The translations under genes were made by a program, and so were the position numbers. 64,000 bases of DNA, from NCBI RefSeq assembly GCF_040712315.1, contig NC_134015.1, positions 42,553,464 through 42,617,463 on the forward strand, in the 5' to 3' direction. Positions 647 through 59,750 of this stretch are shown here, piece by piece; the first letter of the stretch is position 1, and each line of letters opens with the position of its first letter. The notes under the pieces are model-generated. The model was not told where the DNA came from and did no database searches. It worked only from the letters and a program-made list of their open reading frames with translations. The DNA comes from Castanea sativa. Taxonomy: Eukaryota > Streptophyta > Magnoliopsida > Fagales > Fagaceae.

Positions 647-3600
647 ATGGATTCTTGGAAGATCTTTTTGCTAATATGTCAACTTGTCTATTTGTCTTTT
701 CAAAAAAAAAAAAAAACTTGTCTATTTGTTGTTTTTGTCTCTTGTTGCTTTTGTTAAATCTTTCCTTGATCATCTTGGCATAATTACATGTGATGATAAT
801 TATTTGTGTTGTACTGCTTTGACCGCCTTAAAGGCACGAGATTCTTGTCTTTAGTATTTGGATAGTGGTTGTTCCAAGCACATGACAGGAAATAAAGTTT
901 TATTCAAGACACTCGTTGAAGGAAAGATAGGGACAGTCATGTTTGGAGATGGAAGCAAATCTGTGATCAGAGGCATTGGTACTGTGGACATTCTTGGGTT
1001 GCCAGTTTTTGAAGATGTCTGGTATGTTGATGGGTTGAAAGCTAACTTACTCAGCATCAGTCAGATTTGTGACAATGGACTGAATGTTCCCTCCACTAAG
1101 TATGAATGTGAGATACTTGATGGAGGAGGTGACTGTATGTGTATTGGTGTGAGAACAGCTGGCAACTGTTATGGTATAACACCAAGTATAAGCAACAAGT
1201 GTTTTAGTGCAAGAAAAATCAAGTTAACTTATGGCATCAAACGTTGGGACATGCAAGTTACAAGCAATTAGAGAAGATTTCCAAGTGTGATACAGTTATT
1301 GGTTTGCCTAAGTTTGAGAAGATAGAAAAGTGCATCTATGGACCATGTCAGATGGGTAAACAAGTGAAGTCCAAACATCCGTTTGTAACTGATGTTTAAA
1401 CTTCAAGACCTCTAGAGCTGTTGTACATTGATCTCATGGGTCTTGCCAGAGTTCAAGTTTAGGTGGAAAGAGGTATACTCTAGTTGTTGTGGATGATTTC
1501 AGTAGATATACTTGAGTTGTGCATTTGAAAGACAAAGCTGAGGCTCTTGAAAAGATGATACATTTGTGCAAGAAATTGCAAGTTGGGAAAGGTACTGTGA
1601 TAGCCAGAATCAGAAGTGATCATGGAAGAGAATTTGAGAACACAAAGCTGGCTACCTTCTGCAATAATCAAGGCACTTATCAAGAGTTCTCTTCTGCCAA
1701 GACACTGCAACAGAATGGAATAGTGGAACGGAAGAATAGGGTTGTACAAGAGATGGCACGTGTAATGCTACACAACAAGAAGATGCCCAAATTCTTCAGG
1801 GGAGAAGCAGTTAACACTGCTTGCCATACACTTAACCGAGTGTATTTCAGACCTGAGTCCAAGCAAACTCCCTATGAACTTTGGAGAGGAAAGAAGCCTG
1901 TTGTCAAATATTTCCAAATATTTGACAGTGACTGTTACATTCTACGTGATAGAGAGAACCTAGAGAAGTTTGATGCAAAGAGTGATAAGGGATACTTTCT
2001 AGGATATTCTTCCCCTAGTAGGGCATATAGAGTGTACAATCTGAGAACCAAAACAATCATGGAATCTTCCAATGTTGTGATCAATGAAAAATTAAGCTCA
2101 GAGAGTCATTCAGAAAATTCTTCTCCTGTTCAAGAAAAGATTATGGAAGTTGATGATTCACTACTTGATGATTGTGTTGGCAAGCATAGTGAGGAAGAGC
2201 TGTTGTTGTTGAATGATACAGTTTCAGTACCTTCAAGTTCAGAACCATCCACACCGGTCCATGACACTCAACAAGAACAAAGTGAGCTTAGTCCTCCATC
2301 AGAACTGAAAAGTGCCTCCACATCTCTGGTTAAAGGTCCATCTTCTAGAGTAAAGTTGAATCATCCTGCCACAAATATATTGGGTAGTTTGAATGATAAC
2401 ATGAGATTGAGATCCAAGGCATTGAATGTGATTACTCATTCATGCTATCTGTCCCAATTTGAATCGAAAAAAGTGGATGAAGCACTTCAAGATGCTAATT
2501 GGGTTAATTTAATGCAAGAAGAACTTCATCAATTTGTTCAGAATGATGTGTGGGAATTAGTCCCTAGACTAAAGGGAGTCAATGTGATTGGAACTAAGTG
2601 GATATTTAAGAACAAGTCAAATGAACATGGTACTGTTATAAGAAATAAATCAAGACTTGTTGCTCAAGGTTACACACAAGTGGAAGGGATTGATTTTGAT
2701 GAGACTTTTGCACCTGTAGCAAGACTAGAATCCATTAGAATACTTTTGGCCATAAGCAAGTCATCTGGATTTCAAACTGTATCAAATGGATGTTAAGAGT
2801 GCTTTCTTGAATGGCATGTTGCAAGAAGAGGTATATGTTGAACAACCAAAGGGTTTTGTTGATCTTCACAGACCGGATGATGTCTACAAGTTAAAGAGAG
2901 CCATTTATGGTTTGAAACAAGCTCCAAGGGCTTGGTATGATAGGTTAACTACATATCTCACTTAGCATGGCTTCAAAAGAGGATTTGCAGATACTACTCT
3001 CTTCATACGAAAGGATAAGGATTTCTTTGTAGTAGCTCAAATTTATGTTGATGATATTGTTTTTAGTGCCACTAATGACTTTCTTGCTCAATCTTTTGTA
3101 GATGAAATGAAAGAAATGTTCGAAATGAGTATGGTTGGTGAACTAACTTATTTCTTTGGATTGCAGGTGAAGTAAACGGATTCTGGAATTTACATCAACT
3201 AAGAAAAATATGCAAGAAATCTAGTCAAGAGATTTGGACTTGACAAGGTTGCATATGCTAGAACACCAATGGCTGCAAATGCAAAATTAACCAATGATCT
3301 ATCAAGTGAGTCTGTTGATGTTACATTATATAGAAGTATGATTGGTTGTCTTTTGTATTTGACTGCTAGTTGGCCTGATATTGCTTTTAATGTTGGTGTT
3401 TGTTCTAGATTTCAATATAATCCTAAGGTTTCACATTTGAATGCTGTTAAAAGAATCATTAAATATGTTGGTGGAACTTGTGATTATGGATTGCTTTATA
3501 GTAAAGAGTAAAATCTATCTCTTGCTGGTTTTTCTGATTTTGATTGGGCTGGTAATGCCGATGATAGAAAAAGCACCACTGGTGGGTGTTTTTATGTAGG

Positions 3601-3988
3601 AGCCAATCTTGTTGCTTGGATGAGTAAGAAGCAAAATTCTGTATCTTTGTCTACTACAGAGGCAGAATATATTGCTGCTGGAAGTTGTTGTTCACAACTT
3701 CTTTGGATGAAAAAGTTTTTGAGTGATTATGGGATATCTCAAGACACCATGGTTGTTTACTGTGATAATTCTAGTGCTATCGATATCTCTAGGATTTCTG
3801 TTCAACACTCTAAGACTAAGCATATAGAGATTAGATATCATTTTATTAGGGATTTGGTTGAAAGAAAGATTTTTGCTCTTGAGTATATCCCTACTAAACG
3901 TCAGAATGCTGACAATTTCACCAAACCACTTGATAGAAGCAAGTTTGAGACACTTTGTCAAGTAATTGGTGTGATTTTGTGTCCCTAG
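647..3988 (+). pseudogene. E1 pol polyprotein (protease, integrase, RT, RNase H), no gag, broken
   Basis: An ATG at 647 opens a short leader that runs straight into the protease motif LDSGCSKHMTGN (858-893). A gag pre-integrase segment follows (to ~1270). The integrase core has [11 protein letters not shown] (~1609-1640) and [10 protein letters not shown] (~1708-1737). RVT_2 begins near 2450 ([18 protein letters not shown] at ~2700) and has the YVDD box near 3045. RNase H runs from ~3520 ([25 protein letters not shown]) to the TAG at 3986-3988. No UBN2 gag or CCHC knuckle is present. Breaks: frameshifts near 1235 and 2765, and in-frame stops including 2963, 3173, 3200 and 3509. The family makes the enzymes that copy and integrate the element; this copy cannot. 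E2 carries the same gag loss. Confidence 0.88.
681..729 (+). repeat. Micro-insertion with poly(A) and 15-bp target duplication
   Basis: A perfect 15-bp repeat, AACTTGTCTATTTGT, lies at 681-695 and 715-729. Between them is CTTTTC followed by an A run. The sister element E2 has a single copy of the target and no insert, so the event postdates their split. It looks like an extremely 5'-truncated LINE-type retroposition product. Confidence 0.75.
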
Positions 3989-5365: not shown

Positions 5366-6039
5366 GGTCCAAGCAAGATTTTGTCGTTTTATCTCAAATT
5401 TCTTCATGGGTTTTTGTCATTTAAGGCCGGTAAGACCTTTTTGCCCCTTCTTTTTCATTTATTTTCATCTTTCATGCATTTTTTCATGCATTTTGGGGAG
5501 AATTTCGAACCTAAAGGAATTTGGGATTTGTGTTGATTCAAACTTTTTCTTGTAAAATTGATCAATGGGTTTTTGTTATGGGATGATATACAACCGTTCT
5601 TGATGAATTAATTTGATAAATTTGATGGATTTTGAAATATTGAAATTTCTAGGGCTTGAAATTACCCGATTTGGGGATTTTGTTCAAATTGGTTTAATTG
5701 GATGTAATTGGCTTGTTGGATTGATTAATTTGATCATTATAATGTGTTATCTATCTTGTTTAATGATCAAATTGGTAAATTTCTTGAAAATTGTACAAGT
5801 GGTTTTTCAATAATTTGGGGTTTTTGATATAAACTCTATGCTCAAGCCAATTTTGTATTTTTAAAGTTAAATTGAACTTATTCTCACTGCATTAGATCAT
5901 GCATCATCTAATTATATTGCTCATGCATCATATAGATTGTTATTTTTCTATTTTGTTTTATGCTAACTTGCAGTCTGCCTTGGTTTTTGTTTTCTTTTCT
6001 TTTGGTTTTGTCTGTGTGTCTTGTCCTATCCTTAGCACC

Positions 6040-7119
6040 ATGCCTAGGAAAACTAGAGCCAATAGGAAAACCTCCTCTTCTTCTGCACCTTCCTTTGAGA
6101 GTGATATGTTTCTTAATGAGAAGAACCAAGAAATTTATGAGACTTTGAACCTTTTGAGAACTCTTTGGGCTGAGAGAAAGGTTGTTTTAGATGAGCTTGA
6201 TCCTGAGATTTGGAGAAACTTTGAGCGTAGGGGTTGGTTACCTTTGTTGGATATTTCACATCCCCCTTCGGCTACCTTGATCAGAGAGTTCTACTTGAAC
6301 CTCTCGGTCTACTCCTATGATTCCAATACTCTTGTGAGAAGTTGGATATGGGGTGATGAGTACACCATTACTCCTTTAGTAGTGGCTGCTGTTCTTGGGA
6401 TGCCATTGGTCCAGCATCCTGTTTATCCTTATGACAAGTCTCCACCCCTTGATGACATCATGTCATATCTTACGGGATCTTCTATCCAGTAGGGTTCTGA
6501 TCCTCGGATCACTACTCACGAGTTGACTGAGATTCAATATCTTTTCTTTCGGATTTCTTATCATTCCTTATGGCCTATCTCTCATTTGCACACCATTCCT
6601 ATTAAGAGATGTGCATTTTTGTATGCCCTTGTTATCGATGCTCCTATGAGTTTTCCTCATCTTTTCATTCGTTCTTTGATTGAGGTTCATCGAAGTAGTT
6701 CTGTTTCTCATGCTCTTTTCTTTCCTGTTTTTATACATCGGATTCTTTTGCATTTGGGTTTAGAAAACTTTCCCACGTCTGAGCCTGTCCATATAATCGC
6801 TCCTATAGGTGCCACCTTTCTTAGGTAGAGGGTTGCTCAGATGAGAGCTAGCTCTAAACGTCCTAGGGTTGAGTCTTCTGGTGTCACTCCTCCTCCTCCT
6901 TCCTCTACAGGTGATACTTCTACTGAGGTGTCTGTCGATCCTGCTGCTGCTCCTCCATCTTCTATTTCGGATGGTTCAGACATTCGTCGTATGTTGGAGA
7001 CTGTCATGACCGTTCAGGCGGCTCATGGTCAGCTTTTGGTGGACATTCTTGATGAACTTCGTGCTTTGCGAGCGGATTTGGTGAGTATTAGGCCGCCACC
7101 TCCTTTTGATGATGAGTGA
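6040..7119 (+). pseudogene. E1 ORF3: 'putative plant transposon protein' type, two in-frame stops
   Basis: One frame of 360 codons from ATG 6040 to TGA 7117-7119, interrupted by TAG at 6490-6492 and 6826-6828. The N-terminus is basic and Ser-rich (MPRKTRANRK). A globular part follows with REFYLNL, VRSWIWGDEYTITP and VLGMPLVQHPVYPYD, then a segment on LWPISHLHTIP. The tail is Pro/Ser/Thr-rich with SKRPRVESSG, which resembles a basic nuclear-localisation stretch. The globular part resembles the family labelled putative plant transposon protein domain in plant genomes. Its function is unknown to me; an envelope-like or accessory role is only analogy with other Sireviruses. E2 has arginine-tryptophan and glutamine at the two stop sites, so these are decay mutations. 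Confidence 0.65.
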
Positions 7120-7627: not shown

Positions 7628-8363
7628 TGTTGGGTTCTAAGACTTTAGGTTTAAATGTATTAGAACTTCAATTTGTAATATTGGCAAACCATGATCAAAA
7701 TGTTTAGTCTTGTTTTAGTCTTGCTCAGAGTATGTTTAAGTTGTAAAATTGGAATTGAGTGTTATGCAGGATTTACTATGTAAATTTGTCTGGCTCGATC
7801 AATCGAAAATTAGACTCGATCGATCGAAGCTCGTGCAGATTGTTTTTCTGCAGAATTTTCCAACTCAGGCCAAACGTGTTTTACGTGTAGGGTTTTGTGT
7901 TTTGCCCTAGGTATAAAAGGGAAAACCCTAGCCACGTTTTAGGGATGCTCTTTATGCTGTGTGTGTGAAACTTTTGTGAAATCTAGAGGTGTTTGCCTTC
8001 ACATACATAGGGTTATCAAGATCTAGATTGATGTCAAGAGCTTGGTGATCAATTTAGTTGCAGATTTAAGAGCTTAAAGATATACAAGCAGGAGTGCTTG
8101 TGCTTGCTGAGAATTTAAGAAAGAAGTAGTCTGTGGACTCGGAACTGTCACGTGGTCGTGGTAGTAAGTTTCCTACTCGAGGTAGTAATAGGATGTTAGT
8201 GGTCTAAGTCGCTATTGTGTAAACTTTAATTCTTTCAATGTGGATTCAGTTTTACCTTGAGGATAGCTAGATTAAATCCTCCCTAGATTTTTTACCGGTT
8301 TGGTTTTCCTAGGTCATCATATTGTTGTGTTCTTTATTTTCTGCACTTTACAATGATATGATT
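7628..8363 (+). repeat. E1 3' LTR, first part
   Basis: Begins TGTTGGGTTCTAAG right after the polypurine tract. It is broken at 8363 by E2 and resumes after the duplicated TGATT at 16995. The combined length is about 835 bp, like the E2 LTRs (844 and 823 bp). Confidence 0.9.
8359..8363. repeat. Target duplication TGATT (left of E2)
   Basis: Identical to 16990-16994. Removing 8364-16994 restores a continuous E1 LTR matching the 5' LTR around position 475. Confidence 0.92.
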
Positions 8364-9207
8364 TGTTGAGTTATTTAGACCCCATAAAGCACAATTGGAT
8401 TAATCTAATTAACAAGCCAAGTTATTACTTAGTCCAAATTCCAGATCTAGGTTAACACAATCATATAATCATATCAATGTAAAGTGCGGAATATAAAAAC
8501 GCAAAGATATGATGACCCAGGAAAACCAAATCAATAAAAAACATAGGGAGGAGTTAACCTAGCTCTCCTCAAGGTAAACCTGAATCCACTATGAAAGAAT
8601 CGAAGTTTGTACAATTGTGACTTAGACCACTAACATCCTATTGCTACCCATTAGTAGAAACTTACTGACACGACCACATGCAAGCTCCGAGACCACGGAC
8701 TCCTTCTTTCTTGGATTCTCCAGCAAGTACAAGCACTCCCGCTTGTGTATCGTTAAGCTCTTATGGCAGCAACTGAGTGATCATCAAGTTCTTGAAGAAA
8801 TCTCCTTCTTGATAGTCCTAAGCTTGTGTGAAGGCAAGCACCTCTCAGATCTTACAAGAGATTCACACAAATAACAATATGAGCAACCTAAGAAACGTGA
8901 CTAGGGTTTGCCTTTTATACCTAGGGCAAAACATAAAACCCTACACGTCATATGGGCTTAGGGCTGAGTTGAAAATTCTGCAGAAAAAACAATCTGCATG
9001 ACTTTCGATTGGTCGAGTCTAATTCTCGATCGATCGAGTCAGGCAGAAATGCACAGTAACTTCTGCAGTTAACTCGATTCCAACTTTACATAAATAACAT
9101 ACTTTAAGCAAGTCTAAACATAATTAGACACCTGTTTTGATCATGGTTTGCCAACAATACACATTAGAGTTCTAATACATTAGTTCCTAAGTACTTAGAA
9201 CCTAACA
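8364..9207 (-). repeat. E2 3' LTR
   Basis: 844 bp, TG...CA on its own strand. Very similar to 16167-16989; the main difference is about 20 bp missing from the other copy at the ATCGATCGA motif (9004-9040 here). Confidence 0.92.
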
Positions 9208-9709
9208 AACTCCCCCTTTGGCAATCCGTGACAAAACACAACTAAAAGCTCAAAGTTTACAAAGAAAAGCCCTTTGCAAAAATATGCCCATTATAACAAA
9301 TCCAATCCTAACTACTATCCATCAGTTGCAAGTGTAGACAGTAGCTCAATTGAATCAACCTGTATATTTCCTGAAACACTAAACAAAACGCATAAACGTA
9401 TGTGTGAAAAATACAAGTAAACAAAAATAAAATTCTTGATTTCACAAAACACAAAATACAGACAAATATTAATGAATAACTTATAATCATAAGTCTATAA
9501 GCAGTGAAACAAGAAACATAAAAAGAATCTCCCCCTAACAAGAATACATCAAGAGCCAAAAACAATAAGGACAAAGTGAAGTACCTAGATACAATCTAAT
9601 CACCACAGGCTCACAAAAATAAAGTCTCAAACTCTCCAAAACTCCAAAAGTCCCTCTAACTAGATACAAAATCTACTCCCCCTTTTTGTGATGGAATGCC
9701 AAAGGACAA
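9208..9709 (-). other. E2 polypurine tracts and inverted repeat
   Basis: On the minus strand a final tract CCAAAGGGGGAG lies at ~9211-9222 against the LTR. Further tracts are at ~9531 and ~9676. The inverted repeat with TTGCCAAAGG/CCAAAGGACAAA words (9209-9236 and 9676-9709) matches the E1 layout. No ORF is seen. Confidence 0.7.
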
Positions 9710-9713: not shown

Positions 9714-10813
9714 GAATCCATCATCAAAAGGAGGTGGCGAAGACGAGCGTCTAAGAAGCGCCAAATCTGCTCACAAGGCACAAATCTCATCAAGAATGTC
9801 CACCAAAATCTGACCATTAGCCGCCTGAACGGTCACAACAGACTCCAAAGTACGACGAATGTCAAAGTCATCCAAAGTCGATGGTGGAGGAACATCAGTA
9901 GCAGCATCACCTACAGGATCAGCAGACTCCTCACCAGAAGGAACACCTGTAGAAGAAGAAGGGGGTACGGTACCAGAAGACTCAACTCTAGGACGTTTAG
10001 AGCGCTTTCTTATCTGAGCAGCCCTCTGCCTAAGAAAAGTGGCACCTATGGGAGCAATAACATGGACGAGCTCAGAAGCAGGGAAGGCAGACAGACCTAA
10101 AAACAAAAAAATCCTATGAATGAAAATAGGATGAAAAAGAGCATGAGCCGTAGAGGAACTCCTACAAACTTCGTTCAAAGAACGAAGAAACAGATGAGGA
10201 AAACTAATAGGAGCATTCGTAACAAAAGCATACAAAAATGCACATCGCTCTAAAGGAATGGTGTGCAGATGCGAAATAGGCCACAATGAATGACACGCTA
10301 TCCTAAAGATAAGATAGGTAGACTCAGTGAGCTCAGCAGAAGTGATCCAAGGATCAGAACCCCATCGAATAGAAGTACCAGTGATGTATGACATGATGTT
10401 GTCTAGGGGAGGAGACACATCATAGGGGTAAACAGGATGCTGAACAAGAGGCACCCCAAGAGCATTAGCCACTACCGAAGGGGTAATGGTGTACTCATCA
10501 CCATGAATCCAACTCCTCACAAGAGTGCCGGAATCATAGGGGTGAACAGAGAGGTTCAAATAGAACTCTCTAATCAAGATGGCTGGAGGAGGAGAATCAA
10601 AATCCAAAAGAGACAACTAGCCTCGACGCTTAAAGTTTGCCCAATGGCAGGATCAATCTCATCTAACAGAACCCTACGTTTAGCCCAAATCTTTCTCTTA
10701 ATGTTAAGGGTCTCAAAGGTCTCTTGGTGCTTTGCACTCAAGAATCTATCACTCTCAAAGGAAGGGTCAGAGGTAGAGGTGGATGACCTATTGACTCTAG
10801 TCTTCCTAGGCAT
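9714..10813 (-). pseudogene. E2 ORF3: 'putative plant transposon protein' type, frameshifted
   Basis: Starts at ATG 10813 with MPRKTRVNRSS, as in E1. The first ~75 codons are followed by a frameshift near 10620. The second frame then runs through IREFYLNLSV, VRSWIHGDEYTITP, ALGVPLVQHPVYPYD and a long helical part to the tail KRSKRPRVESSG. A TGA at 9771-9773 replaces the arginine codon of E1; the original end is near 9714. Between these breaks 281 codons are open, the longest intact stretch of this protein in the window. It is clearly collinear with E1 ORF3 and more distantly with E3 ORF3. Function unknown; possibly an accessory or envelope-like product by position. Confidence 0.65.
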
Positions 10814-11571
10814 GGTGCTAGAGTAAGAAACAGAGACACAAGAGAAAGAACAAAAACAAAACACAAGGACAGACTGCAAGTTAGCACAAAAAAAAAATCT
10901 ATATGATGCATGAACATATAAATGTCATGATGCATGCTCTAATGCAGTGACAACAAGTTCAAATTTTTAAGTTTAGAATCACAAAATTGGCTTGAGCATA
11001 GAGTTTAAACCATAAACTCCAAAATTTTGAAAAACCACTTGTAGAAAGTATACTCAATTGACCAATTGATCATCACACACGTTAGATAACAGTTTATAAT
11101 GATCAATTACATCAAACTAACAAGTCAATTTCATCAATCAAACTTAAATTGAACGAAATCCCCAAATCGGATCAAAACAAGCCCTAGAATTTTCAATTCT
11201 TCACAAAACACCAATTTGATCAAATTAAACACTATAGATCATGATTATAGCATTGTATGACAAAAACCCATTGATCAATTTCAGAAAATATGGCTTGAAT
11301 CATCAAAAACCCCAAAATATGATTCGGTCCGAAAATCTCCCTTAAATGCATGAATTTATGCATGAAACATGAAATAAAATGCAAAAGAAAGGGTATAAAG
11401 GTCTTACTGGCCTTGGGAGAGAAAAACCTTGCAAAAAGAATGGAGGAAAACGACAAAAATTTGGATTGGCGCCTTGACCGGATCGTATAGAGAGAGAAAA
11501 AGGTGAAAAACTTTTGAAAAGTGAGATGAGCACGTGAAAAAGAATCCTTTTGAAAAAGTCTCTACATGATT

Positions 11572-12788: not shown

Positions 12789-15700
12789 CTAGGGGCATAG
12801 AATCACCCCAATTACTTGACGAAGTGTTTCAAACTTGCTTCCATCAAGTTGTTTAGTGAAGATGTCAGCATTTTGACGTTCAGTAGGAATATATTCAAGA
12901 ATAACAATCTTCCTTTCAACCAAATCCCTAATGAAGTGATACCTAGTCTCTATGTGCTTAGTCTAAGAATGTTGAACAGGGTTCTTAAAGATATCAATAG
13001 CACTAGAATTATCACAATAAACAACCATGGTGTCTTGTGATATTCCATAATCATTCAAGAGCTTTTTCATCCAAAGAAGCTGTGAACAACAACTTCTAGC
13101 AGCAATATATTTTGCCTCTATGGTAGACAGAGACAGAATTTTGCTTTTTACTCATCCAAGCAATAAGATTGGCTCCTACATAAAAACACCCACCAGTGGT
13201 GCTTTTTCTGTCATCAATATTACCGGCCCAATCAGAATTAGAAAAACCAGCAAGAGATAGATTAGACTCTTTGCTATAAAACAATTCATAATCACAGGTT
13301 CCACCAACATATTTAATGACCCGTTTAACAACATTTAAATGTGAAACCTTAGGATTAGATTGAAATCTAGAACAAACACTAACACTAAAGGCAATATCAG
13401 GTCGACTAGCAATTAAATACAAAAGACAACCAATCATGCTTCTGTATAATGTAACATCAACAGACTCACCAGATGGATCATTGGTTAGTTTTGCATTTGC
13501 AGCCATTGGTGTTCTAGCATGTGTAGCCTTGTCAAGTCCAAATCTATTGACTAGATTTCTTGCATACTTTGCTTGGTTGATGTAAATTCCCGAATCCGTT
13601 TGCTTCTCCTGTAATCCCAAGAAATAAGTCAGTTTACCAACCATACTCATCTCAAACATCGCATTCATTTCATCTGCAAAAGATGTAGCAAGAGAGTCAT
13701 TAGTAGCACCAAAAACAATATCATCAACATATATTTGAGCTACAACAAAAAAGTTCTTATCCTTTCGAATGAAGAGAGTAGTATTTGCAAATCCTCGTTT
13801 GAATCCATGCTCAGTGAGATATGTAGTTAACCTATCATACCAAGCCCTTGGAGCTTGTTTCAAACCATAAAGAGCTCTCTTCAACTTGTAGACATCATCC
13901 GGTCTGTAAGGATCAACAAAACCCTTTGGTTGTTCAACATATACCTCTTCTCGCAACATACCATTCAAGAAAGCACTCTTAACATCCATTTGATACAACT
14001 TGAAGTTCAGATGACTCGCTATGGCCAAAAGTATCCGAATGGATTCCAATCTTGCTACCGGTGCAAAGGTCTTATCAAAATCAATCCCTTCCACTTGTGT
14101 GTATCCTTGAGCAACAAGTTTTGAATTATTTCTGATAATAGTACCATGTTCATCAGACTTCTTCTTAAAAATCCAATTAGTTCCAATGACATTGACTCCC
14201 TTTGGTCTATGAACTAATTCTTACACATCATTTCAAACAAATTGATGAAGTTCTTCAACTATAGAATTAACCCAATCAGCATCTTAAAGAGCTTCATCCA
14301 CCCTTTTCGGTTCAAATTGGGATAGATAGCATGAGTGAGTAATGACATTCAAGGCTTTGGATCTCAGTCTCATGTTATCATTCAGACTACCCAATATATT
14401 TATGGCAGGATGATTTAACTTAACTCTAGAAGATGGACCTTTGACCAGAGATGTGGAGGTACCTTTCTGTTCAGATAGAGGACTAAGCTCACTTTGTGTT
14501 TATTGAGTATCATGAATCGGTGTGGATGGTTCTGAGCTTGATGGTACAGAGACCGCATCATTCAACAACAACAACTCTTCCTCAGTATGCTTCCCCACAT
14601 AATCATCAGGTAGTGAATCATTAGCTTCCATGATCTTTTCTTGAACCGGAGTAGTGTTTTCTGAAAGACTTTTTGGACTCAATTCATCATTGATCACAAC
14701 ATTGGAAGACTCCATGACTGTTTTAGTTCTCAAATTGTACACTCTGTATGCTCTACTAGTGGAAGAGTATCCTAGAAAGTAACCCTTGTCACTCTTTGTA
14801 TCAAACTTTTCTAGGTTCACTCTATCACGCAAAATGTAACAATCACTACCAAAAATTCTGAAATATTTGACAACAGGTTTCTTTCCTCTCCAGAGTTCAT
14901 AGGGAGTTTGCTTGGAATTAGGTCTGAAATACACCTGATTGATTGTATGGCAAGCAGTGTTAACCGCTTCTCCCCGGAAGGACTTAGGCATCTTCTTATT
15001 GTGTAGTATGACACGTGCCATTTCTTGGACAACCTTATTCTTCCGTTCCACTTTCCCATTCTGCTGTGGTGCCTTGGGAGAAGATAACTCTTGATGTGTG
15101 CCTTGATCATTGCAAAAGGTAGCCAGTTTTGAGTTTTCAAATTTTCTTCCATGATCACTTCTGATTCCGGCTATCACGGTACCTTTCTCAACTTGCAATT
15201 TTTTGCACAAATGAATCATTTTTTCAGGAGCCTCATCTTTATCTTTCAAAAGCACAACCCATGTATATCTAGTAAAATCATTCACAACCACTTGGATATA
15301 CCTCTTTCCTCCCAAACTCAGAACTCTGGAAGGACCCATGAGATCAATATGTAATAACTCTAGAGGTCTAGTAGTTTGACATCAGTTACAGATGGATGTT
15401 TGGACTTCACTTGTTTACCCATCTGACATGGTCCACAGATGCATTTTTCAATCTTCTCAAACTTGGGCAAACCAATAACTGCATCACATTTGGAAATCTT
15501 CTTTAATTGCTTGTGACTTGCATGTCCCAACCGTTGATGCCATAAGTCAACTTGATTGATCTTTGCACTAAAACATTTGTTGCTTATACTTGGTGTTATA
15601 CCATAACAATTGTCAGCTGTTCTCACACCAATACACATACAATCACCTCCCCCATCAAGTATCTCACAATCATACTTGGTGAAGAGAACATTCAGCCCAT

Positions 15701-16094
15701 TATCATAAATTTGACTAATTCTGAGTAAGTTAGCCTTCAACCCATCAACATACTAGACATCTTAAAAAATCGGCAGCCTTGGGATGTCCACGATTCAAAT
15801 GTCTCTGATCACAGATTTGCTTCCATCGCCAAATATGACTGTACCAATCTTTCCTTCAAAGAGAGTCTTGAATAAAGCTTTATTTCCTGTCATATATCTG
15901 GGACAACCACTATCCAAATACCAGAGACAAGAATCACATGCCTTTAAGGCGGTTAAAGCAGTATAACACAAATAATTATTATTAGATACAATTATATCAA
16001 GATGCTCAAGGAAAGATTTAACAAAAGCAACGAGGGACAAAAACAACAAGTAAACAAGTTGACATATATGCAAAAAGATATTCCAAGAATCCAT
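12789..16094 (-). pseudogene. E2 pol polyprotein without gag, broken
   Basis: ATG 16094 opens a hydrophobic leader (FLHICQLVYLLFLSLVAFVK) that continues in frame into the protease motif LDSGCPRYMTGN (from 15918). Next come the pre-integrase histidine motif (LWHQRLGHASHKQ, ~15540), integrase core (IRSDHGRKFEN ~15150, QQNGKVERKN ~15070), and RVT_2 with YVDDIVFGA (~13735). RNase H ([16 protein letters not shown], ~13230) ends at TAG 12789. Breaks: three stops around 15795-15745, and frameshifts near 15360 and 13125. The protease motif has Pro and Tyr at places where E1 has Ser and His. Start codon to LDSG is 176 bp, against 177 bp in E1 once the micro-insertion is removed, so the gag loss is ancestral to both. 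Confidence 0.88.
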
Positions 16095-16166: not shown

Positions 16167-16989
16167 TGTTGAGTTATTTAGACCCCTTAAAGCACAATTG
16201 GATTAACCTAGTTAACAAGCCAAGTTATTACTTAGTCCAAATTCCAGATCTAGGTTAATACAATCATATAATCATATCAATGTAAAGTGCGTAATATAAA
16301 AAAACAAAGATATGATGACCCAAGAAAACCAAATCGGCAAAAAACCTGGGGAGGATTTAACCTAGCTATCCTCAAGGTAAACCTGAATCCACTATGAAAG
16401 AATCAAAATTTGTACAATAGCGACTTAGACCACTAACATCCTATTGCTACCCACTAGTAGAAACTTACTGACACGACCACGTGCAAGCTCTGAGATCACG
16501 AACTCCTTCTTTCTTGGATTCTCCAGCAAGTACAAGCACTCCCGCTTGTGTATCATTAAGCTCTTATGGTAGCAATTGAATGATCATCAAGTTCTTAAAG
16601 AAATCTCCTTCTTGATAATCCTAAGCTTGTGTGAAGGCAAGCACCTCTCAGATCTCACAAGAGATTCACACAAACAGCAATATGAGCAACCTAAGAAATG
16701 TGACTAGGGTTTGCCTTTTATACCTAGGGCAAAACATAAAAATCTATGCGTCATATGGGCTTAGGGCTGAGTTGGAAATTCTGCAGAAAAAACAATCTGC
16801 ACGACTTTCGATCGATCGAGCTAGGCAGAAATGCACAGTAACTTCTGCAATTAACTCGATTCCAACTTTACATAAATAACATACTTTGAGCAAGTCTAAA
16901 CATAACTAGACACCTGTTTTGATCATGGTTTGCCAACAATACACATTAGAGTTCTAATACATTAGTTCCTAAGTACTTAGAACCTAACA
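16167..16989 (-). repeat. E2 5' LTR
   Basis: 823 bp, pair of 8364-9207. Contains a minus-strand TATA box (16715-16722) and one ATCGATCGA motif (~16808). Confidence 0.92.
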
Positions 16990-51830: not shown

Positions 51831-52279
51831 CTATGGTGAAACAAAGGCAAGGAACTCCTTATCGGTTTCAAACTTAGTCATATCTTCTTCTTTCAAGTGA
51901 AACCATGCCTCAATTCCATCCCCCGATTTAGTGTCAATGAAACAACTAAATTCTTGAACGTAAATTTAGCTGAGCTAACCCATGCAGGTTTCCCCCACCC
52001 AAAATCAACCTCATATAGAGGAAACTTGCTCAAGCTGGTGAAGGAAAGCGTAAGCAGATCCCCTTTTAGGAAGCTAGAGGTGTTCTCTTTGGCATATTTT
52101 AAGTACAAATCACCTTGTTGGAGCATTTTAACAAAATTCCCATCAATTTTCTTAATCGCTTCTCTTATTGGTTTCATAATGCCATGGAAGCCCTCCTCGA
52201 TGTCTCTGGCTGGTGTAGACATAGCATACCGGCTAATATTACCAAATTGATCATATGGAAGAGGCGGGTTTGTCTTGGA
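51831..52279 (-). pseudogene. BAHD acyltransferase 3, C-terminal fragment
   Basis: Matches the last third of the BAHD genes: PPLPYDQFGNISRY, FTSLSKFPLYEVDFGWGKP (DFGWG box intact), KFTFKNLVV. After a 1-bp loss near 51947 the frame shifts; the shifted frame GIEAWFHLKEEDMTKFE runs to a TAG at 51831-51833. YFGN is QFGN here. The upstream part continues at 59756 after element E3. Inactive. Confidence 0.88.
52275..52279. repeat. Left target duplication of E3 (diverged)
   Basis: TTGGA here and TTAGT at 59751-59755. Both align to the same five bases (CTAGT) of intact BAHD 2, supporting a 5-bp duplication with later mutations. Confidence 0.5.
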
Positions 52280-53278
52280 TGTTAGGACATATGTCATCAT
52301 GTATTGGTCATCATGTATTGGTCAATTCTTTGACAAAACACACTTTACTTACAACTAGGTAGATTTAGGATGTGTTTAATACTTCAAGAAACAAGGTTTT
52401 AAGATCAAGTGTTAAAGTCATGCAAATCTGTCCAAGAAACAGTAAAGAAGTGCTGTTTTTTAAATCTCGATAGCTAGTATCTATCGAGGTTTAAAAAGCT
52501 GTTTTAGCCCGATACTCAACAGCTACTCGATAGATAGGATATCTATCGAAATTTATGAAAAAATAGATTTTTAGTTATGATTTTCATTCAATCCGTGTGT
52601 ACATGTTTAGACTTTCTTTTCTCACAACTCCAAATATATATAAGGATTATTTTAAAAGCCATCACAGGTTGCACAGTTGCCCGAGTGTGGAGGAAAGTGT
52701 TGGTCATAAAAATTGTGACTGGAAACATAATTTGCCCTAGTTCTTCTTTCTCTTGAAGAAGCTAATGCGTTTGTACACTGTTGGGTTTTGTGATTAAGTA
52801 GTTTCATGATCTTCATCATGTTAATGAACTGAAGAACTTTGCAGTCAACATTTTTCTCAAGTTAGTGATTAAGTCGCGTACTGGGATTTATGCATCTATT
52901 AGCTAGTCACGTACTGGAAGTCGTGCATTAAAAGGAGAGATTGCCATTACAGAACAAGTCCAATTGTGTATTGGGGTAAGGGTTCAACTGTAGGTTGGTA
53001 TAAGGTACTGGGATTCCTTTACTTGTAACCGCTTGTTGTGATAATAGTAGATTCTCAGGAGTGATGACCCTAAAATCACCCGGTGGTATTTTTTCCTTAG
53101 AGATTTTCCTAATTCGTAAACAAATCACCGTGTTAACTTTATTTTTCGCTACATTTTATTTTAGTTGGTGATTTGTTTGTGCTGCTACGTATATTGTATG
53201 TTAATCTGATTAATTAATCAACTTGGCTAATTAATTGGTTAATTCATCACAAGGGGTTAATACATTCTTGGCTTATCA
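52280..53278 (+). repeat. E3 5' LTR
   Basis: 999 bp. Compared with the 3' LTR it has a 22-bp loss and a 14-bp duplication (CATCATGTATTGGT) near its start. Contains palindrome words such as ATCTATCGAG and CTCGATAGATAG (~52470-52550). Confidence 0.9.
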
Positions 53279-53280
53279 AG

Positions 53281-53292
53281 TGGTATCAGAGC
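53281..53292 (+). other. E3 primer-binding site (initiator tRNA-Met)
   Basis: TGGTATCAGAGC, two bases after the LTR; exact. Confidence 0.9.
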
Positions 53293-53350
53293 AAGCATAC
53301 TCTGATTAGGTTTTAATCTTTACTATGTGATCCATTGACCCCTGTTTGTC

Positions 53351-55249
53351 ATGGATAAAGAACAGTCTCTTATCATACCTCATTTATTTTTTGGCACTTA
53401 CTATGCATAGTGGAAAGTACGCTTGAGAGCTTTCTTGTAGTCTTTAGATGAGAAAGTGTGGCAAGCTGTGGAGATAGGCTAGACCAAGGCGAAGAAAGCG
53501 CTGGCCGATTGGAATGATGCTAAGATCAAGGCGGAAAACTTCAACAGCAAGGCATTGAATGCTTTATTTAATGCAGTAAAAAATGAGGAGTTCAAGAAGA
53601 TATCCTTTACTGAAACTGCGAAGGAAGTATGGATCATCCTCTAGACAACCTATGAAGGAACCAAAGCTGTCAAGGACACGAAGTTTCAAAGGCTCACTAC
53701 AAGCTTCAAAGAGATGAAGATGGTCGAGGATAAGTCATTTGATGAGTTCTATGCCAAGCTCAATGACATAGTGAACTCAGCCTTTAATCTTGGGTAAACC
53801 ATTCCCGATCCCAAGATTGTGAGAATGGTACTCAAATCTCAACCCGAGAGATTTCATGCCAAGATCACCACTATTAAGGAATCAAAGGACATTGACAAAA
53901 TTCCTTTGATAGAGCTGGTTGGCAATCTACAGACTTATAAGTTGGGTTTGACAATGATTGGGAAATCATGTAAAGGTAAGAGCATGGCATTGAAGGCCAA
54001 GAGTAGTGACACAGATGAGTCTTCAGACGATGAAGATTCTAAAATGAAGTACTACATTACAAGGCAATTCAAAAAGTTTATGAAGAATGCCAATGCAAAG
54101 GGCTTCGACAAGGACCTTAAGCAATCTAGCTCTTCTCAGTTTAAAAGCCAAGAATAATGGAAGAATGATGCTAGGAATGGTAGTTAGTACACTATTTCCT
54201 TAGGACCCAAGTGTTTCGGGTGTCAAGGCTTCAGTCACATGAAACAAGAATGCCCTATTTATCTCAAGACCATCGGGAAGAGCAAGGCACTTGCTGCTAC
54301 TTTGAGCGACACCGAGCTTGAGAATGATTCCAAAATGAGAATGATGGAATCCTAAATGCCTTCACCGCCATTATCAATCCTATTGAGGGGATTGTAGAAG
54401 ATGTGGATGAAGAAGAGGACTTGGTGGAGTCAAAGTTTGAGAAGACGGATGAACAAGATGACATCCACACAGCCTATGCAAAATTATACAAGGTCTCCAA
54501 AAAGCATTAGAAGTTGTACAGGTTGGCCACCAAGGAGCTCAGTGATGTGGAGCTTGAACGAGAAGAAATCTCCACAAGTTTGATGAAGCAAATCAAACTA
54601 TTAAAGTATTGAGATTTGAGAACAATTTCTTGGCTGAGAAGACTAAGAAGCTTGAAGCAGAGATATTTCAAGTTAGAGCTGAACTGGAGAGGACATCAAG
54701 TGCAAAGCTTGATGAGATGCTCAGCCTTCAGAAATCTAATTCTGATCGAACTGGTTTAGGGTATGATTTCTTTTCTCCTAATACTACTTCCTCTAGTACT
54801 ACTGTTTTTGTTTCTCCTGCTAATAATGTTGAATCTAAGAACAATGATGTCAAAACTTTGTTAGCTAGTGAGAACATAGACATGGGTAAATCTATCTTAG
54901 GAGCACCCCTAAGCTTGTTAAAAAAGAAACTAAAAACCCTAGGGCTAAGAAAGGTAATACTCAAAAGCCTATATATAAGAATCAGTATCTCTACCATCAC
55001 TGTGGAGCAACCGGATACACTTGACCAAATTGCTATAAGTAGCTAGCCACTCAACAGAGCAACAATATGATCTCATCAGGAAACCAGAATTTGTTTTCAT
55101 CCTCTTATGCGCCTCTTGAAGATCTCCTCAAAGCCTTCATGTTCCTTTTGAACTTGAACGGTTGCAATCCTTCCCCCTCTCCGCCAGTTCAAGGGTTCGC
55201 TAAAAGGAAAGGTTCTTCCAAGGTGTGGAAGGACAAATGCTCTAAGTGA
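53351..55249 (+). pseudogene. E3 gag (UBN2-type, CCHC zinc knuckle), point-mutated
   Basis: ATG 53351. The frame is unshifted for at least 900 bp. It carries UBN2-like parts (FNSKALNALFNAV, TTYEGTKAVKDTKFQRL, FDEFYAKLNDIVNSAFNLG), an acidic/Ser stretch and the knuckle CFGCQGFSHMKQECP (CX2CX4HX4C, ~54209-54253). In-frame stops: TAG 53408, 53438, 53480, 53642 and 54185; TAA 53795 and 54155. A frameshift near 54330 leads into a Glu-rich linker with coiled-coil character (NFLAEKTKKLEAEIFQVRAE). A second knuckle (HHCGATGYT-PNC, ~54985-55025) has lost its first Cys and its His. The frame ends KVWKDKCSK at TGA 55247. Gag would form the particle that packages RNA; this copy cannot. Confidence 0.85.
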
Positions 55250-57040
55250 TTTAATCACTTTTCTCTCTCTCCCTCTATTTTTGTGTTTACATTACTTGCG
55301 TGTTTTGCTTTATTGTTTTTGAGTTAGTCTAGTTTTTATGCATTGCTTTACTTAACATGTTTTTGTTTGTTTGTTTTTAGTTTTGCTTTATTTAGTTTTT
55401 TTTTTTCATAAAAATAAAAAAAATAAAAAAATTAGAAAAACATAAAAACAGTATGTGTTTGAGTACATTGATACTTGTGTACCTTGGATGGCCATTAAAA
55501 CAAAGTTTTCTAAATTTTGTATCTCTTTTAACTTAGATGAGCATCTCTATGCACAACTAAGCAAGTGAGCTTTATGACTCGTGTTTGTAATGAGTAAGAT
55601 TAAGTAATCTCTTGTACTTAACACTCATATCACTCTTTTTGATGGGAAGGACTAGAAAATCTTAAGAGAAAAGCATAAATAATCATCTCATCACTGCTGC
55701 CTGTCAATCATGAAATGACATCTGTATGCTTCGGCACAGCAAAAGTGCAATGTCAAAAGCTTAACATAATTGGGTATTTCTTTTCTCTCTCTTGTATGCC
55801 CATGCATGATATGCTTAAAAGAAAATATGCAAAGAAAATTAAAAGAAAAAAGAAACAAAATACTTTATATATGATTGCAAGTGTGTCTTTTAGGAGATGT
55901 GGAAGTTATAGGATGTACCTTGAAGATGATAGTTCCTATCAAGCAGTTATGATTGTGTGTGAGTTAAATTGATTTACTCACATCTCAAGTCATTATAACA
56001 TGTAGAGACTTATGCAATCTTGCGATATTTTTCACACACAACACGCAATATTCTTTGCTACTTTTGATACATGTGCAAGTACAATGTGATCTGGCCATCA
56101 CAAGGAATACATGTGTTAATTTATACCCATTAAACTGTCTTGACTTGTTTTTGAAATATAAAATTGGTTAGACTTGTTTATTGTGTGTGTGTGTGTGTTT
56201 TGGATCTAAATTCTTGACATTTTTCTTGATTGAGAGATGATTTTGAGAGCTTAAAATTTTGTTTGGATCTTTGGTTGTGTAGCATGCTTAATTGCATTCA
56301 TGTCTGTGCTTTTCTCTTATTTGAAAAACTATTTTTAAGCAATCTCGATCTCGACAGTTGTTGGACACCTTTCGACAGCTAGGCTATCTATTAAGCTCTT
56401 CAACTTCTTTTTATCGCAATCTTAATAACTTTTCAATCCATCGAGAAAGTTTCTGTTTCCTTGATAAATGCTCGATGGCTTCTCAATCCATCGAGCTCTT
56501 TTTGCTGTGGACACCTCTGGATAGCTTCTCGATAGCTAGATCTATTGAACTTTAAATCTCAACACCTCTTGATCTGTCGAGAATTATGGATTTCTATATA
56601 AAGGGTTAGCACGATTTCTGTTTCACTTTTCTCGATCTTTTTCGATCCTTTTTGACCTCTCACCTTCTTAAACACCTCTTTTTCATTCCAAACTTCATTC
56701 CTAGTCGATTTTTAGCCTAGATCAAGCTTTTCTTCTCTGATAAGGGTCTTTAATCCTTCATTTTTCATGCATTTTACGCATTAGACCTAGGTTTTTGGGT
56801 TTTTGAAAAATTTTGGGGTTTTTCAAAATTGATGAGGTTTTTGCGAAATTTTGGGATGGGTTTTGTATAATTGATCCTAAACGATCATGCATTGCATCAC
56901 ATTTGCATTTTAACAATGTTTCATGCATTTTAGACGTGTGTTTACTTTGTTACTAGGATTCCATTTTCTATCATATTGATATTAAATTGTTTGGTACTTT
57001 TTTGCTTGTCTCCCTCTCTCTCCTTCTTTCAGTCTACATC
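55250..57040 (+). other. E3 non-coding region between gag and ORF3
   Basis: Matches the post-pol region of E1 in order: an A-rich block (~55400-55460), AAGCATAAATAATCATCTCA (~55673, compare E1 ~4403), GGAGATGTGGAAGTTATA (~55893, compare E1 ~4697) and a palindrome cluster (56340-56585). No pol motif. No ORF supported. Confidence 0.7.
56340..56585 (+). repeat. CTCGATAG / ATCGAG motif cluster, E3 internal
   Basis: Words such as TTCTCGATAGCTAG, AATCCATCGAG and GATCTGTCGAGA recur in 245 bp. Similar words occur in both E3 LTRs (52470-52550; 58930-59020), paralleling the ATCGATCGA words of E1 and E2. Confidence 0.65.
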
Positions 57041-58193
57041 ATGGCACCTAAGCATAAATCCACTCCATCCCAGAATCCTCTTCATTCTGGAGCATCTTCT
57101 TTTGATCCTACTCCTTCTTATCTTCGGTTTCGTGATGAGAAAGCCTGTAAGGACTTCTCGGAGAAATTCTCTTGATAAGACATTTATTCGAAACGCCAAG
57201 TCATTTTATCGGATTTCTCTGATACTAACCTTCCCACTGTCATCTACAGTAAGGGTTGGAAGTTAGTGTGTGGCATCCAGGTCACTTGTCCTTCCGTGAT
57301 CATATAGGAGTTCTATTCCAATATGCACAGATTTGATTATTCAGCATCTCACTTTATCACTCGTGTTTGGGGTACGCGCATTATGGATATTGTATCCGAG
57401 GTGCTCCATGTCCCAAGGGTAGCGCATCCTGACAACCCCGACTGTGATCGTCTTAAGACTGTGTCTAAAGACGAGCTTATGTCTTTGTTCTATGAGACTC
57501 TTTCCTCTTGGGGTGATTGTCAGAATACCCGTTGCTCGACCTTTACTAAAGGTCCGAGGTTTCTTAACATGGTGATGACTTTTGTTCTTTATCCTTTGTC
57601 TCACTATAACTTTATCACAGAGCCTCGTGCTCGATTTTTGTTATCCATTCTAGAGAACCTCTCTATTGACTTTCTTTCTCATTTGATCCTCTCCTTTATA
57701 GATGTCTATAAGGATACAGCGATCCATGATAAGCTTATCTTTCCTTTAGTTATCATGAGGAACCTTCGCCATTTTTCTATCTTCTTTCCCATTTTCGATC
57801 ATTTCCCTATCATGTGTGCCATTGATAACTATTAGACGGAGTAAGGCCTAACTTCTACTGAAGTGGCCACGGGTTGAGACGGTGACACCTCTAGCTTCTT
57901 CAGCTCCATCCACATCCGCTCTTTCTTCTTCCATGGATGGTGTGACTCTCGAGGAAATTATGACATAGCTTCAATGCATGGATGCTCGTCTTGACACTCT
58001 TAGTGATGAGTTGTGTCAAGGGAACACTTGTGTCGGTCGTATTTCATGACGATAGGCTCGCCTTGGTGGCTTCGTTGAGTCTCCCACTCCTCTAGAGACT
58101 TCTAAGGATGAGGACGACAATGGTGGCTTTGATGGCGGTGGTAATGAGGATGATGGTGCTAGCTCTTCCAGTGTTGATGAGACGACTGCTTGA
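57041..58193 (+). pseudogene. E3 ORF3: 'putative plant transposon protein' type, frameshifted
   Basis: ATG 57041 (MAPKHKSTPSQN). A break near 57173 shifts the frame. The second frame reads SDTNLPTVIYS, GWKLVCGIQVTCPSVII then TAG 57305, then EFYSNMHRFDYSASHFITRV and VSEVLHVPRVAHPDNPDC. The helical core FLNMVMTFVLYPLSHYN and ITEPRARFLLSILE follows (to ~57835). A third, degenerate part ends with an acidic tail (DETTA, TGA 58191). The core is the same type as the ORF3 of E1 and E2 (EFY...N, VRG-like, LG/LHVP...P patterns) but diverged. Function unknown. Its retention in an element that lost pol suggests it matters to the element's cycle. Confidence 0.6.
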
Positions 58194-58197
58194 GTTA

Positions 58198-58770
58198 CTT
58201 GCCCTTTGTCATTCGTGACAAAAAGGGGAGTAGTTTTAGATATGATAGTAGTCAAATATTTATGGAGAGAGTTAGTACATGAGATTTTTGTTAGGGGGAG
58301 TGTCTATACTTATTGAGGGATGTAGTGAGGACTTATGTATCTTTTCTTTTCTTTATATTTTATATACTTAGTTTTTGTACCATTAGTCTTGTGACCACTT
58401 TGTGATAGCAAACCTTGTACTCTTTATTGATATATATATATATTTGAGGTTATTATTACATTTTCACCTATTTCTTCAAATGTTGTTTCTTTTCTCTCTT
58501 TATGCACATACTTCTTGTCACTGCATGCAATCTTTTATTTTTGTTTCACACTAAGATGCCGTGATGAGTTTTGTTTAAAGTGTTTCAGAAATATAGGTTG
58601 TCAAAGTCTTCCTTGCCATGAACTCTTTTCTTGCAAAGTTTTTCAAGATTTTGTGTTAGGATAGATTTTATTGTATTCAACAAGTGAGTATGAGTTGAGT
58701 GATTTATGACTTCTCTCATATGTTCATTTGTTTGTCGTGATTTTGTCACGGATTGCCAAAATGGGAGATT
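58198..58770 (+). other. E3 polypurine tracts and inverted repeat
   Basis: CCCTTTGTCATTCGTGACAAA with AAAAAGGGGAG (58201-58231), TTAGGGGGAG (~58291) and TTTTGTCACGGATTGCCAAAA with ATGGGAGA (58743-58769), just before the LTR. Same bracket as in E1 and E2. Confidence 0.7.
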
Positions 58771-59750
58771 GTTAGGACATATGTGTTTCATGCTAGGCAC
58801 ATATGTCATCATGTATTGGCTAATCTTTTGACAAAATACATTTTACTTGTAATTGGGTAGATCTAGGATGTGTTTAATACTTTAAGGAACAAGGTTTTGA
58901 GATTAAGTGTTAAAGACATGCAAATCTGTCCAAGCTTGACAGCTAGTATCTATCGAGATTTAAAATGCTGTTTTAGCCCAATGCTCGACAACTGCTCGAT
59001 AGATAGGGTATCTATTAAGATTTATGAAAAATAGATTTTCAGTTCTGATTTTCATCCAATTTGTGTGTACATGTTTAAGCTTTCTTTTCTCACAACCCTA
59101 AATATATATAAAGATTATTTTAAGGGCTCTCACAGGTCGCATAGTTACATGAGTGTGGAGCAAAGTGTTGTTCATGCAAATTGTGACCAGAAACCTAATT
59201 TGCCCTAGTTCTTCTTTCTCTTGAAGAAGCTACTGCGTTTGTACGTCATTAGGATTTAGGACCAAGCAGCTTCGTGATCTTTATCGTGTTGATGAACTGA
59301 AGAACTTTGTAGCCAACATTCTTCTAAAGTTGGTGATTAAGTCGCGTACTAGGATCCGCGCATCTATTGGTTAGTCATGTACTGGGAGCCGTGCATTAAA
59401 ATGAAAGATTGTTACTATAGAACAAGTCCAATTGTGTATTGGGGTAATGGTTCAACTGTATATTAGTATAAGGTACTATGATTCCTTTACTTATAGCCGC
59501 TTGTTGTAATAATAGTGGATTCTTAGGAGTGATGATCTTAAAATCACCTGATGGGGTTTTTTCCTTAGAGGTTTTCCCCATTAATTCGTAAATAAATCAC
59601 CATGTCAACTTTATTTTTCGTTGCATTTTATTTTAGTTGGTGATTTGTTTATGCTGTCACGTATATTGTATGTTAATCTGATTAATTAATCAACTTGGCT
59701 AATTAATTAGTTAATTCATCACAAGAGGTCAATACATTCTTGGCCTATCA
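58771..59750 (+). repeat. E3 3' LTR
   Basis: 980 bp partner of 52280-53278. Confidence 0.9.

Follow-up and report, generated by a model that had tools for sequence, protein, structure and literature searches.

Gag-only and pol-only copies in two Sirevirus-like LTR retrotransposon families of Castanea sativa: a probable bipartite system

Three elements that carry either gag or pol

We analysed a 64,000-nucleotide stretch of Castanea sativa DNA (NCBI RefSeq assembly GCF_040712315.1, contig NC_134015.1, positions 42,553,464 to 42,617,463; hereafter the window), which contains the long terminal repeat (LTR) retrotransposon E3 (52280-59750) and two further elements, E1 and E2 (Table 1). By window sequence, domain and protein comparison, E3 is a Ty1/copia element with gag and a third open reading frame (ORF3) and without pol; E1 and E2 are its mirror image, with pol and ORF3 and without gag. 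Considering this arrangement together with a survey of the genome, we regard it as probable that E3 represents the gag half of a bipartite LTR retrotransposon, and that there are two such Sirevirus-like families, whose gag and pol RNAs would complement each other and recombine.

All 131 database relatives of gag match E3 and none matches E1 or E2, and the eight E1/E2 pol pieces tested gave a single match to E3, at an expect value (E) of 0.32. No gag motif was found in E1 or E2 by domain scan or by comparison with gag relatives; together they hold the protease (PR) region (Pol_BBD), gag_pre-integrase, integrase (IN), SH3 and reverse transcriptase (RT) domains, with RNase H (RH) recognised by resemblance only, in a piece that has no Pfam match. 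The frame of E3 gag, which spans 632 codons, is broken by stops and frameshifts; it opens with an ATG at 53351, holds one CCHC knuckle and a degenerate second knuckle (by eye), and closes with a lysine and a stop (55247-55249). Its predicted structure is too weak for a fold search (mean predicted local distance difference test score, pLDDT, 49.8). E3 ORF3 matches PF20167 at 42.4 bits, below the cut-off of 45. The DNA after the E3 gag stop resembles that after the E1 pol stop (local score 119.5, against 51 for the best of 200 shuffles), and the leader block CCATTGACCCCTGTTTGTC of E3 is common to E1, E2 and a pol-only sister of E3 elsewhere in the genome (L023), the likeness stopping at the start codon. 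These results agree with the initial annotation as to the gene content of all three elements, the end and knuckles of E3 gag, and the correspondence of the DNA following gag and pol. Its placement of the three in one lineage calls for a correction: at 27-31% amino-acid identity between the ORF3 of E3 and those of E1 and E2, E3 is only a distant relative.

E1 and E2 are colinear and 81.6% identical over 8.5 kb, and the pol of both ends in a pyrimidine-rich CCCTAG. E2 is nested, in opposite orientation, in the 3' LTR of E1, with the 5-bp duplication TGATT at its borders (8360-8375, 16985-17000; by eye). Because it inserted there, E2 moved after the gag loss common to both elements, from which we infer that E1 and E2 moved with Gag from another element. 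The host of E3 is an acyltransferase pseudogene (51834-60078, minus strand), where a decayed 5-bp duplication, TTGGA/TTAGT, flanks the insertion; both copies align to the same five bases of an intact acyltransferase paralogue (both by eye). Acyltransferase frames (PF02458) also lie at 22294-23580 and 29856-31226.

Table 1. Parts of E1, E2 and E3, in positions of the window.
Feature	Position	Strand	Remarks
E1 5' LTR	1..573	+	truncated by window start; primer-binding site near 576
E1 pol (hydrophobic leader, PR, IN, RT, RH), decayed	647..3988	+	no gag upstream
E1 ORF3	6034..7116	+	domain and protein comparison
E1 3' LTR	7629..8373	+	split by E2; resumes after about 16990
E2 3' LTR	8374..9208	-	LTR comparison
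E2 ORF3	9774..10819	-	domain and protein comparison
E2 pol with hydrophobic N-terminal leader, decayed	12789..16094	-	no gag upstream
E2 5' LTR	16177..16989	-	LTR comparison
E3 5' LTR	52280..53278	+	copies of both kinds elsewhere in the genome, gag-only and pol-only, have LTRs of this family
E3 primer-binding site TGGTATCAGAGC	53281..53292	+	initiator Met tRNA type; identity agrees with the description in PMC2829016
E3 leader	53293..53350	+	last block is CCATTGACCCCTGTTTGTC
E3 gag, decayed	53351..55249	+	
E3 post-gag non-coding DNA	55250..57019	+	homologous to E1/E2 post-pol DNA
E3 ORF3 (PF20167, Transposase_32), decayed	57041..58193	+	domain match, open reading frame
E3 terminal polypurine tract CAAAATGGGAGAT	58757..58769	+	by eye; two changes from Sirevirus octamer
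E3 3' LTR	58770..59750	+	LTR comparison

Gag-only and pol-only copies in the LTR family of E3

Each genome sample was taken from the top of a list of 385 to 3,988 first-look candidates, as the best 40 hits by similarity to the window, and none was drawn at random. Among 40 loci anchored on E3 ORF3 (the best of 1,402 candidates; E3 itself, with windows of 9.9 kb read at 20 loci and of 1 kb at 19), gag is joined to post-gag DNA in 25, pol stands there in five, ten have no clear joint, and none holds gag and pol together in order. A strict rule finds the direct gag-to-post-gag joint at 24 loci including E3, or 25 with L028, so that the loss of pol is not private to E3, a point set as a test beforehand. 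As a separate observation, a palindrome, AAGTGATTTAATCACTT, holds the E3 gag stop (55244-55260), and most of the strict-joint gag copies are alike, with slightly shorter arms.

Pol is joined to post-gag DNA at L017, L023, L024, L025 and L038. In the first four, the pol end rejoins that DNA at base 79 every time, and it is from base 79 that the E3 post-gag DNA is also homologous to the post-pol DNA of these pol-only sisters. L017 and L023 carry the E3 LTR at both ends, the leader, the post-gag DNA, and ORF3 with the stretch from there to the 3' LTR; L024 and L025 share most of these parts, are rearranged, and show no gag in the windows read. The loci without a clear joint comprise a gag end with a deletion (L031), a gag start only (L045), and eight with neither gene (L016, L027, L030, L034, L036, L040, L041 and L044).

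Anchoring instead on the LTR end plus leader (40 of 3,988 candidates scored; 36 newly read, with E3, L011, L014 and L017 known from the earlier reading) gave 38 places with gag, a few of them internally deleted, and two with pol. From the pol-anchored sample (40 of 385 candidates) we read 12 upstream windows, none of which has gag upstream of pol: six join the leader to pol, one shows the N-terminal extension of pol alone, and five were not assignable. The leader adjoins pol in all nine resolved E3-family pol copies (L017, L023, L079, L123, L125, L129, L130, L132, L134), the junction in L017 crossing a deletion of the pol start. In the other eight, the first 110 or so residues of pol form a conserved basic stretch (24 lysines and arginines against 9 aspartates and glutamates among 115 residues in L130; 25 against 9 among 109 in L132), which has no match to gag and is the same in independent copies. 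A hydrophobic Pol leader had been considered as the mark of every pol-only copy; this was dropped, as the pol sisters of E3 have the basic extension.

The E1/E2 family, a chimera and the overall count

For the E1/E2-type leader, 40 places were scored of 2,028 candidates, and the 39 besides E2 were read over 450 bases. By DNA, 18 match E3 gag (62-65%), two the Pol leader and 19 neither, while protein comparison matches 36 to gag; combined, there are 35 gag copies, two internally deleted ones (L106 and L116, by eye), one Pol leader (L113) and one chimera (L097, counted in both lists). In all seven of the best-ranked gag copies that were followed, a gag tail leads into DNA 79-88% like the E1/E2 post-pol DNA; the tail was identified by its frame likeness, and in L135 by tblastn as well. 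Six keep the gag stop at the same codon, L140 having lost it, and in L137, L139 and L141 the post-pol likeness begins with the base that directly follows the E2 pol stop.

The chimera, a class of insertion that the initial annotation had suggested looking for, fuses an E2-type Pol leader in frame to gag (L097; G000 C8:6161230-6161679). Its joint brings together 139 nt of Pol leader (91%) and gag DNA (97.8% to L108) with a 9-nt overlap, as would be expected of RT template switching.

Gag copies resolved at the 3' end number 32 (25 + 7), none followed by pol as far as read; the pol copies resolved at the 5' end number 12 (nine of the E3 family, with E1, E2 and L113; L038, read on its downstream side only, is outside this count), none preceded by gag. 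In the best-hit samples of both families, therefore, none of the 44 copies resolved at the informative end is a gag-pol element. The expectation that the two kinds would not be outnumbered by autonomous members is borne out to this extent, in a small sample ranked by similarity to the window. When 40 gag tails (from 1,588 candidates) were matched by position alone against 40 pol places, with no positive control, no pair in gag-pol order lay within 8 kb; the pairs that did emerge were 12 of gag tail with ORF3, 12 of leader with gag tail, three of pol with ORF3 and one of leader with pol. Gag copies outnumber pol copies in every sample.

On this evidence, gag-only and pol-only members both appear to occur within each of the two LTR families. 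The two kinds seem to have in common the LTR, primer site, leader, ORF3, polypurine tract and the DNA after the first open reading frame (ORF1), and ORF1 alone seems to be exchanged, between the start codon and a point just past the stop codon; the shared DNA was seen end to end in the E3 family and, in the E1/E2 family, over the leader and post-ORF1 DNA. The partners of E3 would be its own pol-only sisters rather than E1 and E2, and the idea of E3 and E1/E2 as direct mutual partners was dropped, since each LTR family holds both kinds of copy. The two-component system first proposed from the window is thus upheld in its mutually exclusive gag-only and pol-only copies and revised in that its halves are not E3 on one side and E1/E2 on the other; that they complement each other in trans is what the pattern suggests.

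Shared DNA, selection and age

Over four shared segments, the Kimura two-parameter (K2P) distance between kinds is 0.149-0.186, against 0.155-0.174 within the non-pol copies (three pol-only copies in each segment; one segment groups L016, which has neither gene, with the gag-only copies). The between-kind distance is not above the mean of the within-kind values (permutation p 0.57, 0.73, 0.89 and 0.97), and of the 12 nearest neighbours of pol-only copies, 11 are gag-only copies and one is L016. The ORF3 tree has 16 rows, of which the three that are pol-only fall in three places, with three changes forced by the starred branches. The LTR end and leader of E2 are 82.5% identical to those of E1 (165/200) and 94-97% identical to those of the 39 best-scoring other places, nearly all of them gag copies. 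Outside ORF1, gag-only and pol-only copies thus appear to form one pool, and this mixing of the shared regions fits co-packaging of both RNAs.

The ratios of nonsynonymous to synonymous divergence (dN/dS) all include neutral decay after insertion. Between E1 and E2, pol has a dN of 0.068 and a dS of 0.320, a ratio of 0.21 (bootstrap 0.17-0.26; 1,024 codons), against 0.92 and 0.92 in two non-coding controls; ORF3 gives 0.37, and the Pol leader alone 0.32 (0.11-0.95; 45 codons). The whole of the pol dN is accounted for by neutral decay after insertion, for which the LTR divergences of E1 and E2 (K2P 0.080 and 0.058) give an expectation of about 0.07. For gag, the median is 0.34 (0.17-0.50) over 78 pairs of 13 copies, E3 included, and E1/E2-type gag starts give 0.44 (594 pairs of 35 copies). 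Both pol and gag look to be under selection.

LTR ages, whose comparison had also been suggested at the outset, were estimated for ten E3-family copies besides E3. K2P is 0.094-0.140 in eight gag-only copies, 0.155 in E3 (86.4% identity in this calculation; 83% by gapped BLAST), 0.085 in L017 and 0.266 in L023; the two kinds therefore overlap in age.

Relatives in a metagenomic protein database

Metagenomic protein searches gave the first hint that the gag-type and pol-type classes are both families. They have length limits that hide intact gag-pol frames, and for this reason were not used to count autonomous copies. The start of E2 Pol has 467 relatives among 479 candidates, and in the 120 listed a hydrophobic leader or its remnant is joined to PR (110 found with a script pattern and 10 by eye), with P0140, P0223 and P0229 extending upstream through leader and primer-binding site. 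In 118 of these 120, the Kyte-Doolittle mean over 19 residues reaches 1.6, the usual threshold for membrane helices. The structural model of the Pol leader (mean pLDDT 48.5) exceeds 70 only in about its first 30 residues, where a helix is predicted at residues 3-31 (block means 73-86), and is poor in the rest.

The E3 gag tail has 11 relatives among 13 candidates: six stop at the same codon, P0250 continues into E3-like post-gag DNA, P0246 and P0251 reach similar sequence by frameshift (by eye), and P0241 and P0245 end otherwise. None of the 11 runs into PR, in searches subject to the length limits just mentioned. A mid-gag piece of E3 has 7,980 relatives among 8,000 scored candidates (120 listed), and no relatives turned up in collections of viral and bacterial contigs.

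Sirevirus features and remaining contents of the window

The initiator Met type of the E3 primer-binding site agrees with the tRNA identity described for Sireviruses (PMC2829016). The Sirevirus 5' junction, CA / ATTGG or AGTGG / TATCAGAGC, is exact in E2 and E3 with AGTGG; in E1 it has one change in the 9-mer and, in addition, TA for CA. The published polypurine pattern consists of the octamer AGGGGGAG, upstream copies of it and an AT/TG attachment site. E2 has an exact terminal octamer with TT/TG and two exact upstream copies; E1 has three exact upstream copies and one change in the terminal one; E3 has one exact upstream copy and two changes in the terminal one, but keeps AT/TG. An inverted repeat at the joint of polypurine tract and 3' LTR was found by program in E2 (19 nt, 79%) and not in E1 or E3, although arms with a gap can be seen by eye in E3. 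TCGA clusters occur in the LTR and upstream of ORF3 in all three elements, with totals at chance level; the core of their palindromic box is TCGA, as against CGG-CCG in the Sirevirus description. The 632-codon span of E3 gag fits a Sirevirus gag of near 660 amino acids.

Elsewhere in the window, an RT_RNaseH frame (PF17917; 49248-50545, minus strand) belongs to another retroelement, which may be a pararetrovirus-like or gypsy-like fragment, and 43-bp repeat arrays with a larger duplication of about 1.4 kb occupy 18762-20999.

Interpretation and alternatives

Under the bipartite reading that we favour, gag RNAs and pol RNAs would both be made from the same type of LTR, with the same primer site and leader; Gag from the gag RNA would build particles that package both RNAs, Pol from the pol RNA would copy both, and RT template switching between the co-packaged RNAs would keep the shared regions alike. 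The excess of gag copies would fit a need for Gag in excess. Pol, freed from a Gag-Pol fusion, would begin with a predicted membrane-type helix in E1/E2 and with the basic stretch in the pol sisters of E3, and we would guess that these N-termini aid entry into particles or the finding of RNA. The partners lack different genes and share regulatory DNA that is kept alike, as a complementary pair should, and the mixing of shared regions and the L097 chimera suggest recombination between them.

Several points weigh against this reading. The ORF3 tree gives good support to only 3 of its 13 inner branches, and shuffled labels fare equally well; mixing of the shared regions could also come from gene conversion between DNA copies. 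Constraint is weaker in E3-family pol (dN/dS 0.36-0.59; four copies, six pairs) and in E3-family ORF3 (0.46; 231 pairs of 22 loci). Age and, in many cases, decay mark the copies read: the first 150 codons are free of stops in only 8 of the 39 E1/E2-type leader loci. At L021 a diverged pol lies upstream of gag; this order is the wrong one and the pol is unlike that of the E3 family, and we read it as part of a neighbouring element. No assignment was possible for 10 of the 40 ORF3-anchored loci and 5 of the 12 pol-upstream windows, and samples of the best 40 leave room for an autonomous minority or a different helper family. The case is built from genome sequence, so that what we say of RNA, protein and particles is extrapolated from it. 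A stronger version, in which the system is obligately bipartite with no autonomous form, gag and pol RNAs being segments with the same LTRs in the same particle, Pol having its own targeting domain, and the arrangement having arisen or persisted in two LTR families, is plausible, and we hold it tentatively, stopping a little short of calling it likely.

Among the alternatives, both kinds might be ordinary non-autonomous derivatives moved by an autonomous Sirevirus elsewhere, with little mutual help. Published pairs work in this way, so far as the parts of the papers drawn on here describe them (Tos17/Lullaby, as proposed; TR-GAG with an ATCOPIA63 relative; Cereba/Quinta; BARE-2/BARE-1), yet, to judge from dN/dS, a gag-less lineage kept its pol functional and a pol-less lineage its gag, for which a purely parasitic pair would have no need, and the 44 resolved copies include no autonomous copy of either LTR family; we judge this explanation unlikely, if still credible. 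A different account of origin, compatible with the bipartite reading, is that gag-only elements began as reverse-transcribed spliced gag RNA with pol as the intron. Gag copies do rejoin just past the pol stop, the pyrimidine-rich end of E1/E2 pol would suit a splice site, and copia and BARE are described as making spliced gag RNAs, but BARE appears, from part of its literature, not to replicate its spliced RNA, and the parent with splice sites is hypothetical; we consider this origin distinctly unlikely. It is very unlikely that these LTR families have an autonomous gag-pol parent which keeps shedding both deletion forms without complementation: such shedding would explain the shared LTR, leader and ORF3 and the scattered pol-only rows in the tree, but the joints are uniform (24 gag ends including E3; four of four pol ends at base 79), the N-extension of pol is unlike gag and the same in independent copies, and no parent is in the sample. 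That E3 lost pol by a private deletion in one dead copy, as its age and broken state might suggest, is refuted by the same joint at 23 further loci (strict rule; 24 with L028) and by metagenomic gag tails whose stop falls at the same codon or which continue into similar DNA.

Comparison with known systems

Selfish elements are usually sorted into autonomous masters and their parasites. If the bipartite reading is true, with each resolved copy lacking one half, both halves selected and the shared DNA mixing, the two families would amount to selfish elements that cooperate, in a manner comparable to multipartite viruses. Three questions can then be put to the test: how Pol without a Gag fusion reaches particles, how copy number sets the gag:pol ratio, and whether whole families go unnoticed by tools that class such elements as defective.

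TR-GAG elements are reportedly the subject of Chaparro et al. 2015. Like E3, they are LTR elements with a gag ORF and no pol, and at least one transposes (the ATCOPIA63 case, PMC8704663); their likely helper is an autonomous relative, whereas E3 has ORF3 and pol-only sisters in its own LTR family. E3 has two LTRs, a primer-binding site, a polypurine tract, a gag ORF and no pol, but gag is not its single ORF; it would work like a TR-GAG element rather than strictly be one. More widely, gag-less and gag-only plant elements are known, with an autonomous helper found or presumed in the cases considered (PMC2829016, PMC3977881, PMC3599292, PMC11302176, PMC9744471, PMC8704663, PMC2410132, PMC3735527, PMC11963269, PMC11728184, PMC2923131, PMC11117352, PMC5491270). 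E1 and E2 have the features of a Tos17-type gag-less copia: a pol ORF, LTR, primer-binding site and polypurine tract, and no gag motif. Tos17 of rice is thought to use the particles of another element, and BARE-2 of barley, which cannot make gag, has had its RNA shown in BARE-1 particles. The proposed gag source of both has gag and pol, whereas the LTR end and leader of E1 and E2 recur in gag-only copies, and the Pol of E1 and E2 has a hydrophobic N-terminus. In wheat, Cereba/Quinta and Sabrina likewise involve a Gag-only or Gag-Pro partner thought to donate Gag, but Cereba is autonomous.

Sireviruses (the SIRE1/Opie/Maximus lineage of copia) resemble the present elements in primer-site junction, long gag and a third ORF after pol, and in some of the copies of the polypurine octamer; in the published set, as described, gag and pol are in one element, whereas here they are apart. 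PF20167, the family of the ORF3 that here follows pol or gag, is related to the ORF1 of Athila (gypsy) by one paper. In literature titles and abstract openings, mainly of non-subscription journals, we found no LTR family made solely of two complementary halves.

Athila pol-less families and rice pararetrovirus pairs may be regarded as close analogues. The gag-only and gag+env families of Athila lack pol, have a selected gag and in some cases a further ORF, and recombine among families, but they are gypsy rather than copia, and the potentially autonomous pol-bearing Athilas also have gag. The rice endogenous pararetroviruses ePVCVL and ePVCVL2 are complementary defective partners whose regulatory DNA is kept alike by recombination, although they are regarded as different species and not as halves of one LTR family. 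Precedents thus exist for each half of the system proposed here, in TR-GAG, Tos17 and BARE-2, and, in pararetroviruses, for complementary defective pairs.

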